DNA of 34,421 nt, taken from assembly GCA_026991605.1 (NCBI GenBank), contig JALXBG010000164.1, positions 1 to 34,421 of the forward strand, given 5' to 3'. The notes beneath the pieces were generated by a model. It was not told where the DNA came from, did not search any database, and saw only the letters and a program-made list of their open reading frames with translations. The stretch's first letter is position 1, and the number at the start of each line of letters is the position of its first letter. Shown piece by piece: positions 6,338-29,505 of the stretch. Source of the DNA: Sulfurovum sp. (GTDB taxonomy: Bacteria > Campylobacterota > Campylobacteria > Campylobacterales > Sulfurovaceae). A program made the translations under genes and the position numbers.

Positions 6338-7780
6338 TTAAAACTTCTTCCAAAAAGAACTGCTCAGCAACACAAACACGGTATAACATTCCAGTCTACC
6401 AATAATCATGGCGATAGAAAGAAAAAGTTTATCAAAATCATTAAAAAAAGAAAAATTATCAGATGGACCAAGCAGTGAGAAACCTGGACCCACATTACCA
6501 ACTATGGCAAAAGCACCTGAAATGGCACTCATAGCGTCAAACCCTCTTGCATAGATATAGATAGTGACGATTCCCACGGTCAACATAAAAAGTGCAAAAA
6601 AGCCAAAAGTAGAGGAGAGTATACGTTCTCTTTGTTTCACACCATCAACAAAAACTGAAATAATAGTATTGGGATGTAAAATACGTTTAAACTCTGAAAA
6701 AAGTGTTTTAAAAATAATGACATAACGTATGACTTTGATACCCCCAGCTGTTGAGCCAGTATTACCACCTATGAGCATAGCAATAAAAATCAAAGCAATC
6801 GCCAAGTGAGACCAAGTACCATAGTCAATCGTTGCAAACCCCGTCGTGGTCATGACAGATGCAATCGTAAAAAATGCATGTTTAGAGGCATCATAAAAAC
6901 TGTCACCACTGATATCTACATGCACAAATGTTAAAGCGATACTCAAAAGTACAAAAAGTGTAAAATACCATTTCACTTCTTCTGTTTGATAGCCAGAGGT
7001 ATCTTTATGATAGAGCTTTAAGTGTGCCAAAAAGTTGATACCCGCAAGCATCATGAAAAGTGTTGTCGTCCAGATAATCCCATCATTGGTAAAATAGCCC
7101 AAAGAATTGTTTTTTGTAGAAAATCCGCCTGTGGATATTGTAGAAAAAGCATGATTGATGGCATCAAACCACGTCATACCAAAAAATTTTAATAACAACA
7201 TATCTAAGAGCGTCAATACAAGATAAATACCCCATAAGCTCAATGCAGTATCTTTTATCTTTGGGGTAAGCTTTTCTAGCTCTATCCCTGTAGATTCTGC
7301 CTTAAATAAAGAAAGACTCCCTGTAGGGTTAATCATAGAAATAAGTCCGATACCCAACACAATCACTCCAAGTCCACCCATCCAATGCATCAAACTTCTA
7401 TGAAATAAAATAATATGGGGTAAAGACTCAATATCTGTATAAATCGTAGCACCTGTCGTGGTAAAACCACTAATTGCCTCAAAAAAGGCAGAAGCCAAAG
7501 AGATGTGGGTATAGATATACAGTGGTATAGCTCCTGCTATTCCCAGTAGTATCCACAGTAGATTCACTACCAATATACTTTCTTTTATTTTGAGAGATAA
7601 GTTATGCTTCCTAAGGATAAGCCACACTGAGAGATTTATCAAAAAGAAGAGTGTATCATAGGCTAAAAATTTAAGATAATTTTCTTGGTATATCACCCCA
7701 ATCAAAGCATCTAAGACAAAGATGGCAGACACTGTCATACCAATTACAGAGAGTATTTTAATGATATTTTTATAATTCAT
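6338..7780 (-). CDS. trkH: TrkH/KtrB-family potassium uptake channel subunit
   Basis: A 480-residue inner membrane K+ transporter. The four selectivity-filter loops of this family are visible at TTTGA (107-111), STGGF (216-220), TTTGF (311-315) and VGNVGPG (427-433), each with the key glycine. Between them lie paired membrane helices, about ten hydrophobic segments in all. Length matches TrkH (about 480). The gene overlaps the end of trkA by 11 bases in another frame, so the pair is translated together. The TrkA neighbour forms the cytosolic gating ring. A 90-base gap with the tetR promoter follows, with no clear terminator after this gene. Confidence 0.95.
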   Translation of the reverse strand: MNYKNIIKILSVIGMTVSAIFVLDALIGVIYQENYLKFLAYDTLFFLINLSVWLILRKHNLSLKIKESILVVNLLWILLGIAGAIPLYIYTHISLASAFFEAISGFTTTGATIYTDIESLPHIILFHRSLMHWMGGLGVIVLGIGLISMINPTGSLSLFKAESTGIELEKLTPKIKDTALSLWGIYLVLTLLDMLLLKFFGMTWFDAINHAFSTISTGGFSTKNNSLGYFTNDGIIWTTTLFMMLAGINFLAHLKLYHKDTSGYQTEEVKWYFTLFVLLSIALTFVHVDISGDSFYDASKHAFFTIASVMTTTGFATIDYGTWSHLAIALIFIAMLIGGNTGSTAGGIKVIRYVIIFKTLFSEFKRILHPNTIISVFVDGVKQRERILSSTFGFFALFMLTVGIVTIYIYARGFDAMSAISGAFAIVGNVGPGFSLLGPSDNFSFFNDFDKLFLSIAMIIGRLECYTVFVLLSSSFWKKF

Positions 7781-9086
7781 AAATCCACTGTTTCACTTTT
7801 TGATTTTCCTGCTCAATACAAAATGCAAGAATTAAATCATCTTCTTCAAGTGTTATTTTGTCTATAAAAGAATATATTTTCTCATCACGCAGATAATAGA
7901 TTGTAGAATTTTCCACATGAATAGACTTGATTATCTTATTGATAAGTTTTGATCTTGGAAATATTTTACGCATAAAGACTGTTGCCTTTGCACCACAAAA
8001 ACTTTTTTGTATCACAACACCAGTTGAGCCAATCTCTTCCATAATTTTATTATAGGCACTCATTTTAGGGCCACGCACAACAATAATGCCTAATGCATGC
8101 ATGAGATTATAATACTCCATTTCATTATTGATAGCAACAACTTTATGAATGCCCTTTTCTTTTGCTTCTAAACACTTAATAATATTATATTCATCATTGT
8201 TTGTTGCAGCAATAAAAATATCTGCCTGATCGAGACCTTCTTCTTCAAAAATATCATCCGTACTATACTTTGAGTTAATCACACTGGCTTTCCCTGCCAA
8301 CGCTTCATCTGCTTTTTCACATAAGGCAATATTTTTCTCAACCAATTTTACATCGTGTCCAATTTCCACAAGTTCTTTGGCAATAGCAATACCCAGTCCT
8401 TCTCCACCAAAAACCACACAACGCCGTATTTCTGATCTATTTTCTGGTTCAAGTTCTGTACAAACATCGCGGATGTCATCTTCTTTACCAAACAAATATA
8501 TAAGATCATTAGGTTCTATCTGTATATCATTTTGTGGAATAAAAAATCTCTTATCTCTTTCTATCCCTGCAATAGTAAAAGGACGCGAAGATGTCAATAT
8601 AAAGGGATTAATATCTTTTGATACACGTATCGAAATGAGTCGATTTTCCGTATATTTAAAAAATTTGACATTATTTGCTTTTGGATAATTTAATAAAGAA
8701 GCCACAGCAGATGAAGAAAGTTTTGTAGGGAAAATAATTTTATCAATATCAAGTTTGTCTCTGATAATTTCTTCTGCAAAAATATGTTTTTGTAGACGTA
8801 TAAATTTCCGTTGAATATGTAAAATAGCATCTGCCATAAGAGAAGCAATAAGATTGACATTATCAACATCTGCCACCGCAATAAAAAGATCAATTTCTTT
8901 CTCTATGAAATTTTGATAAATATTGGAATCTTCCAAATCCCCACAAATGGTTAATACATCTAAGTTTTCTTGAATACGATGCAATGCTTCACTATTTTTA
9001 TCAATCATCGTAATCTGATGCCCTATAGAGAGTGTTTTCGCAAGATTATATCCTACTTTCCCCGCACCAGCAATAATAATATTCAT
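7770..9086 (-). CDS. trkA: Trk potassium uptake regulator TrkA
   Basis: A 438-residue cytosolic protein with two RCK units, the usual TrkA layout. Each unit has an NAD-binding Rossmann domain (GAGKVG at residues 7-12, GGEGLG at 227-232) followed by a TrkA-C domain (about 140-215 and 360-435). It binds nucleotides and gates TrkH. The start is ATG at 9086, with AAGGG upstream at a suitable distance. It leads the trkA-trkH operon, and the pckA hairpin lies upstream. Slightly shorter than the E. coli protein, as expected for this group. Confidence 0.94.
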   Translation of the reverse strand: MNIIIAGAGKVGYNLAKTLSIGHQITMIDKNSEALHRIQENLDVLTICGDLEDSNIYQNFIEKEIDLFIAVADVDNVNLIASLMADAILHIQRKFIRLQKHIFAEEIIRDKLDIDKIIFPTKLSSSAVASLLNYPKANNVKFFKYTENRLISIRVSKDINPFILTSSRPFTIAGIERDKRFFIPQNDIQIEPNDLIYLFGKEDDIRDVCTELEPENRSEIRRCVVFGGEGLGIAIAKELVEIGHDVKLVEKNIALCEKADEALAGKASVINSKYSTDDIFEEEGLDQADIFIAATNNDEYNIIKCLEAKEKGIHKVVAINNEMEYYNLMHALGIIVVRGPKMSAYNKIMEEIGSTGVVIQKSFCGAKATVFMRKIFPRSKLINKIIKSIHVENSTIYYLRDEKIYSFIDKITLEEDDLILAFCIEQENQKVKQWIYEL

Positions 9087-18770: not shown

Positions 18771-19097
18771 CTACAACTGCTTCAACAGAATGGTATCTAA
18801 CTCTTTTTCGCTTATATTTTCTAGGCTGCTTTTGTCATAAATATAGATAAGATGTATTTCGCTATCAACAAGTTTAACATAAGATATCAGTCTATACCCT
18901 GCACTTTTACCTTTGTTTTTATTACTATTGGCTATGCGTACCTTATAGACATTATTTTTTAGTTCGATACCCAAGTCATCAAGTGAGGTCATGTTTAGTA
19001 AGAAGTTTTCTATGTCATCTTCAATATGTTTGTATTTTTTGGAAAGTTTTTTAAGCGCCTTTAGGTAAAGGTCTTGTTCTATGATAGTGTATGACAT
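18771..19097 (-). CDS. RelE/ParE-superfamily toxin of a type II toxin-antitoxin pair
   Basis: A 108-residue small basic protein. The pattern of an N-terminal lysine-rich helix pair (LKALKKLSKKYKHIEDDI), then a beta strand YKVRIANS, then a KGKSAGYR turn, then LISYV and the strand IHLIYIYDKSS is that of RelE-fold mRNA interferases. The conserved Arg and Lys/Tyr of the central sheet are present. Its ATG overlaps the antitoxin stop by one base (TAATG), so translation is coupled and the toxin is made only with its antidote. Toxin in second position is the usual relBE order. Activity cannot be read from the sequence; RelE-type mRNA cleavage is the family expectation. Confidence 0.82.
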   Translation of the reverse strand: MSYTIIEQDLYLKALKKLSKKYKHIEDDIENFLLNMTSLDDLGIELKNNVYKVRIANSNKNKGKSAGYRLISYVKLVDSEIHLIYIYDKSSLENISEKELDTILLKQL

Positions 19098-24319: not shown

Positions 24320-24603
24320 TATACCCCTTTTTTAACTATTATTCTCACCCATATACTACTCTAAGTAAGAATACTTTTACTATTATTATCTTTATCAATA
24401 ATTACATATTGTATCATTTATCTCTTTCACTGTTCGTAATTTAAAAATTAGTATAAAATAGTCCTTGTATTTGTCTTTAAGTATATATTGTGTCTAGATT
24501 TAAACTAGAAGAAGAGTTTAAACATGTTTTTACTATACTGAAAAATATACAAAATCTAAAAGAAAAATTAAACTTTGAAAATATTACTAAGGATGCAATA
24601 AAT
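24320..24603. other. 284-base divergent intergenic region, the longest in the window
   Basis: It lies between the LpxH-like gene and the propeller protein. It is very AT-rich, with several TATAAA/TATAAT-like boxes (for example at 24452-24457) but no convincing -35/-10 pair. There is a small inverted repeat AAGTA-agaa-TACTT (24363-24376) and TCTAG...CTAGA (24493-24509). A frame open from a GTG at 24490 runs into the propeller gene but encodes a lysine-rich helix with no ribosome site, so I treat it as non-coding. No RNA gene was recognised. Confidence 0.5.
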
Positions 24604-25866
24604 ATGAAAAAATTACTGTATATACTAAGCATATTACTTATATTTAAAACTAATATACTTATGTCAGATAACACTTTTAAGTCAAACAATATAGTAGAAA
24701 AGCCTGCTCCTATTACATTTATATCTAGATGTGATACTGATGGTCTTTCACATGGTGTGAGTATAAAAGGAAAGTATGCATATGTTGCAGATGGTTTTGC
24801 TGGACTAAAGATTATAGATATTTCAAATCATAAAGCACCTATAATTGTAGGTTCATATTATGGAGGTGAATCTGATCTACCGATAATAAACTCTGCTAAG
24901 AAAGTTGTAATCAGAGGTAAATACGCTTATATCGCAACTAGCTTTACAGGATTACAAATTATAGACATTACTAATCCCATTCACCCTACATTTGTAGGTA
25001 AAGTTTTTAATGAAGTAAACTCAGGTGATTTAGCTTTGAAAGGAAACTATGCATATGTTGTAGATGATGGTATAGGGGAAATACAAATTATTAATATTTC
25101 AAATCCAGCATCTCCTATAGTTGTGAATACATATAAGACACATGTTTCTGGTGTTAGTATAGACATCTCAAAAAACTATGCTTATATAGCTGGTTTCAAT
25201 GGATTAGAAATTATAGATATTTCAAACCCAGCTTCTCCTATATATATAAGTAAATATGATACAGGAGTTAGTTTTGGTGTGCAAATCAAAGGCAAATATG
25301 CTTATGTATCAGGTTCTTACGCAGAAAGGTTACATATTTTAGACATTTCAAATCCTGCTTCACCTAAAAGTGTAAGTACAAGCCCAAAAGGATTTGCTGG
25401 AAGTGGAATAAGTATTTCAAATAATTATGCTTATCTTTCTCATGTAGTCGGTGAGTTGAATATAATAGATATTTCAAATCCAACTTCTCCTAAATATGTA
25501 GGTACATATGATACTCCGTCTTCTTCTGGAGATGCTGTAACTTCTATAGGAAATTATATTTATATAGGAAATGGAAGCAATGGTTTAACCATCATAAAAT
25601 TGAATATAAAAGATACAGATAACGATGGTATAGCAGATAACATAGACCTAGATGATGATAATGATGGTATTAGTGATAGTGATGAAATAACATTAGGTTT
25701 TAACCCGCTCAATGAAAAAGATGGATTAGCTGATTATGATAGAGATGGATTTTGTAATGCTATGGAGTTTAATATAGGTACAAAAATGAATAATTTTAAT
25801 GACAAGCCAATTTGGACCCCTATCCAAATAGATACTGTTGTAACATTTATCCCTACAAAGCCTTAA
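24604..25866 (+). CDS. Secreted LVIVD-repeat beta-propeller protein with calcium-binding repeats
   Basis: A 420-residue protein. Residues 1-21 (MKKLLYILSILLIF...) are a signal peptide without a lipobox Cys. From residue 51 to about 335 seven similar units follow, each with a 'G-K/N-Y-A-Y-V/I' strand and an 'L-x-I-I-D-I-S-N-P' strand. This is the LVIVD pattern, suggesting a seven-bladed propeller. After it come Asp-rich loops of thrombospondin type 3 style: DTDNDGIADNID (337-348), DDDNDGISDSDE (350-361), DYDRDGF (377-383). These should bind calcium. The start is ATG at 24604 with AAGGA ten bases before it. It is more AT-rich than its neighbours, which may mean transfer or relaxed codon choice. 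No sorting signal is seen at the C-terminus. A cell-surface or periplasmic binding role is likely; the ligand is unknown. Confidence 0.85.
   Translation: MKKLLYILSILLIFKTNILMSDNTFKSNNIVEKPAPITFISRCDTDGLSHGVSIKGKYAYVADGFAGLKIIDISNHKAPIIVGSYYGGESDLPIINSAKKVVIRGKYAYIATSFTGLQIIDITNPIHPTFVGKVFNEVNSGDLALKGNYAYVVDDGIGEIQIINISNPASPIVVNTYKTHVSGVSIDISKNYAYIAGFNGLEIIDISNPASPIYISKYDTGVSFGVQIKGKYAYVSGSYAERLHILDISNPASPKSVSTSPKGFAGSGISISNNYAYLSHVVGELNIIDISNPTSPKYVGTYDTPSSSGDAVTSIGNYIYIGNGSNGLTIIKLNIKDTDNDGIADNIDLDDDNDGISDSDEITLGFNPLNEKDGLADYDRDGFCNAMEFNIGTKMNNFNDKPIWTPIQIDTVVTFIPTKP
24754..25608 (+). repeat. Seven tandem propeller-blade repeats in the coding sequence
   Basis: Seven units of about 40 codons. 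The most alike are units 3-6, which share ISNPASP or ISNPTSP before a 3-6 residue linker. At DNA level the phrase ATTTCAAATCCAGC recurs with small changes, so recent internal duplication is plausible. Confidence 0.8.
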
Positions 25867-29073: not shown

Positions 29074-29505
29074 CTATACGTTTGTACTTCCACAGTGACC
29101 ACATTTTTTTGCAGCTACTGGTATTTCCATTGCACACTCACCACATACTTTTGTTGTTGGTGCTGTTTCAGTTTCTGGTTCTTTCATTTTGTTATATGCT
29201 TTGATAAACATAAACACAACAAATCCTAAAATAATAAATGAAATAATATCATTAATTGTCGCACCATATTTAATAACTGGTGCACCTACTTTTTCAGCTG
29301 CTGCCAATGTGGCATACGAATTACCATCTAATGGAATAAATAATTGAGAAAAATCTACTTTTCCCATTAACAAACCTACTGGAGGCATAATTACATTTGC
29401 TACTAATGACTTTACTACTGTAGCAAAAGCACCACCAAAGATAAAACCTACTGCCATATCTACCATATTTCCCGAGATGAGAAACTTTTTAAACTCTTCT
29501 AACAT
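29074..29505 (-). CDS. mscL: Large-conductance mechanosensitive channel MscL with C-terminal zinc ribbon
   Basis: A 143-residue safety valve that opens under membrane tension during osmotic downshock. The N-terminal helix (MLEEFKKFLI), first membrane helix VDMAVGFIFGGAFATVVKSLVANVIMPP, periplasmic loop, and second membrane helix at about 80-105 are standard. Instead of a plain charged C-terminal helix, the end carries C121-x2-C124 and C135-x2-C138, a small zinc-ribbon pattern (CGECAMEIPVAAKKCGHCG). AGGG precedes the ATG by six bases. The upstream region holds an inverted repeat at 29528-29547. Confidence 0.93.
   Translation of the reverse strand: MLEEFKKFLISGNMVDMAVGFIFGGAFATVVKSLVANVIMPPVGLLMGKVDFSQLFIPLDGNSYATLAAAEKVGAPVIKYGATINDIISFIILGFVVFMFIKAYNKMKEPETETAPTTKVCGECAMEIPVAAKKCGHCGSTNV

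Follow-up and report, generated by a model that had tools for sequence, protein, structure and literature searches.

The C-terminal domain of the T9SS is an Ig-like targeting module of about 80 residues found on many secreted enzymes, while dockerins and cargo-loading peptides are short modules which may occupy either end of the cargo. Bacteria of the Sulfurovum type are usually described as chemolithoautotrophs. The GlyGly-CTERM, PEP-CTERM and LPXTG signals are described as a motif followed by a membrane helix and a basic tail at the C-terminus, and in the same account genomes with GlyGly-CTERM and rhombosortase generally also carry a type II secretion system, T2SS (PMC3237569). A portable PDZ-dependent signal has been published for one T2SS substrate, and according to its authors there is no linear universal signal (PMC12369372). 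The LVIVD repeat was described in 2004 in cell-surface proteins (PMC2447325).

The locus analysed here encodes an LVIVD protein ending in a short tag, which is compared with these systems as follows. Like GlyGly-CTERM, as well as PEP-CTERM, LPXTG and MYXO-CTERM, it is a short C-terminal region on unrelated signal-peptide proteins, and its cargo overlaps with that of GlyGly-CTERM in the trypsin-like, metalloprotease and nuclease classes given in that account (PMC3237569). It differs in having neither a transmembrane helix nor a basic cluster, in being a predicted hairpin of about 14 residues and in occurring also near the signal peptide. The signature of PEP-CTERM, GlyGly-CTERM and LPXTG was not found in the aligned rows, where few residues follow the core, at most two of them basic, and a hairpin instead of a helix is predicted. 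The C-terminal domain of the T9SS is similar as a C-terminal targeting module, but the tag has only 14 residues, is predicted as a hairpin and also occurs at N-termini. Dockerins and cargo-loading peptides are alike in being short modules used at either end; the cargo of the tag differs in having signal-peptide-like starts. With respect to LVIVD and choice-of-anchor B proteins, the propeller part belongs to PF08309 and the terminal module is the hairpin tag.

The features of the gene are summarized in Table 1, with positions in the window, that is, the whole stretch of 34,421 nucleotides that was analysed. The gene has a GC content of 0.307, whereas the 28 other window genes average 0.389 (sd 0.035), in accordance with the AT-richness claimed by the sequence-only reading, and its GC3 of 0.150 was the lowest among the 29 genes (mean of the others 0.333). 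Low GC3 was also observed at 29074-29505 (0.188; MscL-like channel) and 7770-9086 (0.214; TrkA-like), both named by eye; hence, tagged genes are not marked by low GC3 alone. The gap before the gene had been called the longest in the window, but with 284 bp it ranks third behind gaps of 334 bp and 291 bp. A small gene resembling RelE/ParE-type toxins by eye lies at 18771-19097 on the minus strand, and the 291-bp gap beside it could hold a short partner gene. No RNA or tRNA features were found within the window.

Table 1. Features of the LVIVD propeller gene and its start region
Feature	Position	Strand	Basis or remark
LVIVD propeller gene, secreted type, with TSP3-like stalk and C-terminal tag (predicted hairpin)	24604..25866	+	420 aa
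AAGGA, probable ribosome-binding site	24589..24593	+	read from sequence upstream of ATG
Signal-peptide-like N-terminus (MKK, then hydrophobic stretch)	24604..24666	+	hydrophobicity; helix 2-18 in AlphaFold2 model
Seven-bladed beta-propeller, LVIVD repeats, aa ~37-333	24712..25602	+	Pfam, AlphaFold2, Foldseek, blade motif
TSP3-like Asp-rich loops, aa ~334-400, probable calcium-binding stalk	25603..25803	+	sub-cut-off Pfam; thrombospondin structural match
Terminal tag, predicted hairpin, KPIWTPIQIDTVVTFIPTKP, core W-x-P...P at 25813-25854	25804..25863	+	profile searches; AlphaFold2

The seven LVIVD units that had been read from the sequence were recovered by PF08309 (E=2.1e-65 in 7 stretches; 216.3 bits against a cut-off of 20.2) as tandem repeats of ~42 aa, and a motif search located seven blade anchors. 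The full-length AlphaFold2 model, based on a six-sequence alignment with a mean pLDDT of 77.4, also gave a beta-propeller, and its many Foldseek matches to solved propellers included WD40 chains (target TM <=0.78) and BamB. No solved structure matched the entire protein by sequence at E<=0.1. The thrombospondin type 3-like Asp loops were present as claimed, but the bacterial Pfam model TSP3_bac (PF18884) scored 22.1, below its cut-off of 25, which several tagged relatives pass, unlike the window protein. The choice-of-anchor B model of NCBIfam (TIGR04312) scored 55.9, below its cut-off of 100. The near-identical blades of the sequence-only reading were not found, as the pairwise protein identity among blades was 10-43%, and a recent blade duplication in the window gene is thereby contradicted. 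The five other copies of a 53-nt repeat family were 64-87% identical to the reference copy. By eye, the LVIVD relative in genome G018 (L026:2403-4313) has about twelve blade phrases, some of which are nearly the same; its blades, unlike those of the window gene, may therefore have been duplicated recently.

Among 60 relatives, 20 matched some part of the window protein at E<=1e-3, many of them only its C-terminal part, which supports a variable presence. This LVIVD relative of G018 (on C38; 637 aa) adjoins genes that look ABC-transporter-like by eye, and not the neighbours of the window gene. From these patchy matches and different neighbours, no conserved syntenic orthologue was seen among the loci read. 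The set of 27 propeller-related frames (E<=1e-4) revealed different terminal modules: the tag ends three (window, G018 and G095), a lipoprotein-like cysteine lies near the N-terminus of five (two by regular expression, three by eye), one (L344) ends with a hydrophobic stretch and a basic tail, and eight end in another repeated terminal domain, presumably DUF4214. In the remaining ten the tag, lipoprotein cysteine, basic tail and repeated domain were all unrecognised. Thus, the tag occupies a site where other members often carry another module. The signal-peptide-like N-terminus, the TSP3-like loops and these LVIVD relatives with other terminal modules support the secreted or surface-like part of the architecture proposed earlier; its adhesin part and a ligand found no support.

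The tag comprises the last ~20 residues of the window protein, a module overlooked by the sequence-only reading, with a 14-residue core W-x-P-[IV]-x-M-[GD]-D-I-x-[TI]-F-V-P. In the search of the 60 relatives, the C-terminal stretch of ~85 residues recurred at 68% identity in the LVIVD protein of G018 and at 45-52% identity in non-LVIVD proteins, including those on C147 and C62 of the window's genome, and it sits at the extreme C-terminus of the matched proteins. A trypsin fragment of the window's genome (L148), which surfaced first as a weak match (E=0.49), carries only the last ~20 residues, TKTWAPIMMDEIITFVPTQQ, soon after the catalytic domain and without TSP3. The module is therefore the terminal peptide, and TSP3 is a common but separate spacer. 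The tag copy of the window is divergent, with the turn D-T-V-V, and could be decaying.

Profile A2, trained on 18 C-terminal tails only and no N-terminal example, was searched against 78 genomes of the genus. At E<=1e-3 it matched 35 places, of which 18 were its own seeds. The 17 non-seed matches comprised 5 C-terminal, 12 N-terminal and 0 internal ones, the N-terminal matches having a signal-peptide-like stretch no more than about 35 residues away; the C-terminal match in G076 is a 29-aa frame and probably a remnant. The profile became noisy when loosened: at E<=0.5, 40 of the 78 genomes gave matches, many in short, unlikely frames. Weak tail-profile matches, for example NLSPIIVGDIS, which recurs in short frames across many genomes, were discarded as spurious. 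The wider profile A4, to which N-terminal and gammaproteobacterial tags were added, gave 28 matches at E<=1e-3 in 9 of the 78 genomes, 22 from its own rows and 6 not. Several C-terminal tags scored worse with A4 than with A2, and the window tag, which is not an A4 row, had E=0.0025. The reversed control A5 (A4 reversed) gave 7 matches at E<=0.5, the best at 0.0204, and none at 1e-3.

The joint table of 40 tagged frames from 39 stretches contained 26 C-terminal, 14 N-terminal and 0 internal tags, with 0-11 residues after the profile match in the C-terminal ones; the tag is thus not confined to the C-terminus. Among 34 tags, the same codon was used at identical degenerate residues in 1612 of 3359 comparisons, 48% compared to 41% expected from window codon usage. 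This near-expected agreement indicates that the similarity is kept at the protein level and is not that of recently copied DNA. A variant N-terminal form, CPKWFPMPSNDGLVVVLPIYD, was observed on the C54 protein of the window's genome, with similar forms on C35 and G018:C186. These probable sub-threshold variants and the forms in L092, L146 and L147 were left out of the tag count. Frames with the variant C-[PA]-[KQ]-W-F-P-M-P-S...DGLVVV[LI]PIYD lie at L140:263-2212 and L149:6670-7662, both of the window's genome, and at L151:1400-4432, and in each the order is a signal-peptide-like start, the variant tag and then TSP3 repeats.

In the tagged proteins scanned, none of the best Pfam stretches listed extended over the tag, and NCBIfam gave no match above cut-off over it in eleven proteins scanned; a sub-threshold 'choice-of-anchor H' match in L032 (13.7 bits against 53) extends into the tag. 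Literature searches on C-terminal sorting in Sulfurovum or Epsilonproteobacteria, on PEP-CTERM with Sulfurovum and on the motif strings returned nothing relevant among the matches listed.

The structure of the tag was predicted with AlphaFold2. In the model of the 92-residue C-terminal module, built from 18 sequences with a mean pLDDT of 91.6, the tag forms one strand at residues 75-81 and a second at 84-90, and the blocks containing them average a pLDDT of 97. The same two strands were present in the full-length model at low confidence (pLDDT ~52). The tag is accordingly predicted as a two-strand beta-hairpin. Foldseek with the C-terminal module gave no match at E<=1e-3, the best being thrombospondin type 3 repeats, and the tag profile had no match at E<=10 among PDB sequences.

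The tag is carried by many unrelated proteins that have signal-peptide-like starts, as judged by hydrophobicity and by eye. Several such unrelated proteins share the tag within one genome, as is expected of a sorting signal in general. By Pfam, the enzymes among them are trypsin, subtilase (a fragment), M12B reprolysin-like, M35, DNA/RNA non-specific endonuclease, multicopper oxidase, GH8 and PETase-like proteins; the others are CAP, NHL, LVIVD, DUF1800, Ig-like Big_9 and a right-handed beta-helix with an alpha/beta-hydrolase match. By eye, the L149 (C35) frame is SGNH-like and the C54 protein pectate-lyase-like, Pfam having found only TSP3_bac there. The tag is C-terminal in the CAP proteins of L021 and L057 and N-terminal in that of L082; L192 has a CAP-similar domain by weak NCBIfam matches. 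Among the trypsins and the copper oxidases, the core is kept while the linkers diverge. A subtilase with a C-terminal tag at L189:2582-4013 is split into two overlapping frames, perhaps by a frameshift or an assembly error.

Clear tags were found in about 9 of the 78 genomes of the genus. When 398 evenly drawn genomes from the order were searched (profile A3, E<=1e-3), three matched, namely two of the genus, both seeds, and G436 of another family. The core DNA pattern was searched against 84,980 species genomes, for which about four chance matches are expected by our own estimate with uniform bases, and it gave 25 stretches: 12 in Sulfurovum MAGs, 2 in other Campylobacterota, 9 in Gammaproteobacteria, one in Flavobacteriaceae and one in Chloroflexi. 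The Chloroflexi match was judged to be chance. The Flavobacteriaceae bin has a tagged C-terminal end at a contig edge (L170:6208-6363), a possible assembly join or transfer.

The gammaproteobacterial stretches belong to Colwellia (3), Algicola (2), Vibrio penaeicida (2), an Alteromonadaceae and the unclassified genome 42_54_T18. Most of the tagged proteins in these genomes are very large, and as a rule the tag comes after a signal-peptide-like start; four of five carriers scanned had a Pfam match (SpvB/RHS, RHS, Big_7 and DUF637). The near-identical motif WIPIxVGDITTFIP occurs near the start of secreted-looking proteins in L163, L165 and L172 (Colwellia) and in L184 and L186 (Vibrio penaeicida), some of which match SpvB/RHS or DUF637. 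In V. penaeicida and 42_54_T18 the tag lies internally or well away from the end, the motif being ~110 or ~190 residues into the V. penaeicida frames, and these non-terminal tags weaken a strict terminal rule. Within the Colwellia family, 7 of 295 genomes had the tag at E<=1e-4, three of them being seed sources. Viral contigs gave 7 stretches with the DNA pattern. Viral carriage was rejected for six of these, since five are by translation copies of one non-tag peptide and L331 resembles, by eye, a structural protein of a phage. In the seventh, at L336:924-964, a tag-like motif, WSPVRVGDIYVLVP, stands at the cut-off start of a frame.

On a quick single-gene rho tree of 71 genomes, the nine tagged genomes need 7 changes, compared to a mean of 8.6 after shuffling, and 26 of 500 shuffles were as low. 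Six genomes without a rho match and G064, with rho in two pieces, are absent from this tree, and the G076 remnant was counted as untagged. A single clade of tagged genomes is thus rejected and the trait is patchy. In four of the nine tagged genomes, tagged genes adjoin rho at a variable site (L148, L192, L191 and L311): a trypsin in the window's genome, where the contig ends within the gene, a CAP-like protein and a trypsin in G018, an M12 protein and a trypsin in G085, and a CAP protein in G098. Neither the five other tagged genomes nor the nine untagged ones that were read at this site had a tagged gene beside rho. In the window's genome, GC3 was 0.208-0.251 in six further tagged genes, compared to 0.335-0.371 in three control genes and an average of 0.333 in the remaining window genes. 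Taking together the patchy tree, the variation at rho and the low GC3, the tagged genes look like an accessory, exchanged set, some of which incomplete assemblies may hide. Gene lists around tagged genes revealed no recurrent neighbour except orthologous loci in the stretches read.

On balance, we favour the interpretation, drawn from sequence, that the tag is a portable hairpin which would keep exported proteins at the cell surface after export. A localising role is suggested by the position of the tag, the argument from anchors and the analogy with sorting signals. The propeller is probably exported by the Sec route, and the hairpin, in many cases set apart from the folded domain by a TSP3 or Ig-like spacer, would dock to a conserved partner of the cell envelope or to the outer membrane, so keeping the protein at the surface. 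As the tag is used at either end, the hairpin itself is probably recognised, and not a free terminus or a cleavage site.

The range of cargo is suggestive of type II secretion as the export route. Of the 78 genomes in the genus, 72 have GspG, with a score above the cut-off in 66; all 40 good genomes and all nine clearly tagged ones are among the 72. A near-universal GspG means that the T2SS could export the cargo while the choice of tagged genomes is left unexplained; as an explanation of the tag distribution it is unsupported, and no machinery yet co-varies with the tag. The same presence of GspG in every clearly tagged genome favours a different role, which we consider rather unlikely, in which the hairpin is an export signal recruiting folded periplasmic cargo to the T2SS, for instance as an extra strand on the secretin or on the PDZ-type domain of GspC, the proteins then being released. 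A patchy tag without a co-located partner is what is expected if the partner is a housekeeping machine, and a portable PDZ-dependent signal has a precedent, as far as described in PMC12369372. Clear tags are nevertheless absent from most genomes with GspG, so that a T2SS signal would have to be optional. In its classes, namely proteases, a nuclease, GH8 and esterase-like proteins, the tagged cargo resembles T2SS substrates. More doubtful still is the extended proposal that the hairpin acts as a linear, end-independent signal recruiting folded Sec-exported cargo to the T2SS and moves along with accessory genes between marine Gammaproteobacteria and Campylobacterota, which would be possible because the receptor is already there.

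The tag could also act like a dockerin, the tagged enzymes docking on a common scaffold to form a multi-enzyme surface complex. Many hydrolases do share this one module, often beside Asp-rich calcium-type repeats, but some genomes have a single tag only (G067 and G083), and we regard such an assembly module as improbable. Slightly less credence is given to a structural cap or solubility element of each carrier without a role in localisation: its predicted local folding as a hairpin would suit this, whereas the unrelated folds of the carriers, the opposite ends used in CAP proteins and the core kept while linkers diverge argue against it. Chance similarity or a recent DNA repeat can practically be dismissed, for although the motif is short and the DNA pattern gave chance-like matches in 7 viral stretches, the best match of the reversed profile was 0.0204, none of the 40 tagged frames had an internal tag and the codons are nearly randomised.

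Surface retention by the hairpin thus remains the preferred reading. If the tag is a true localisation tag, it defines a previously unlisted secretome whose members are recognisable from their sequence without further data. Having no helix and serving at both ends, such a hairpin would solve the task in another way than the LPXTG, PEP-CTERM and GlyGly-CTERM signals. If it acts in type II secretion, a marker of T2SS substrates would become testable with a 20-residue peptide.
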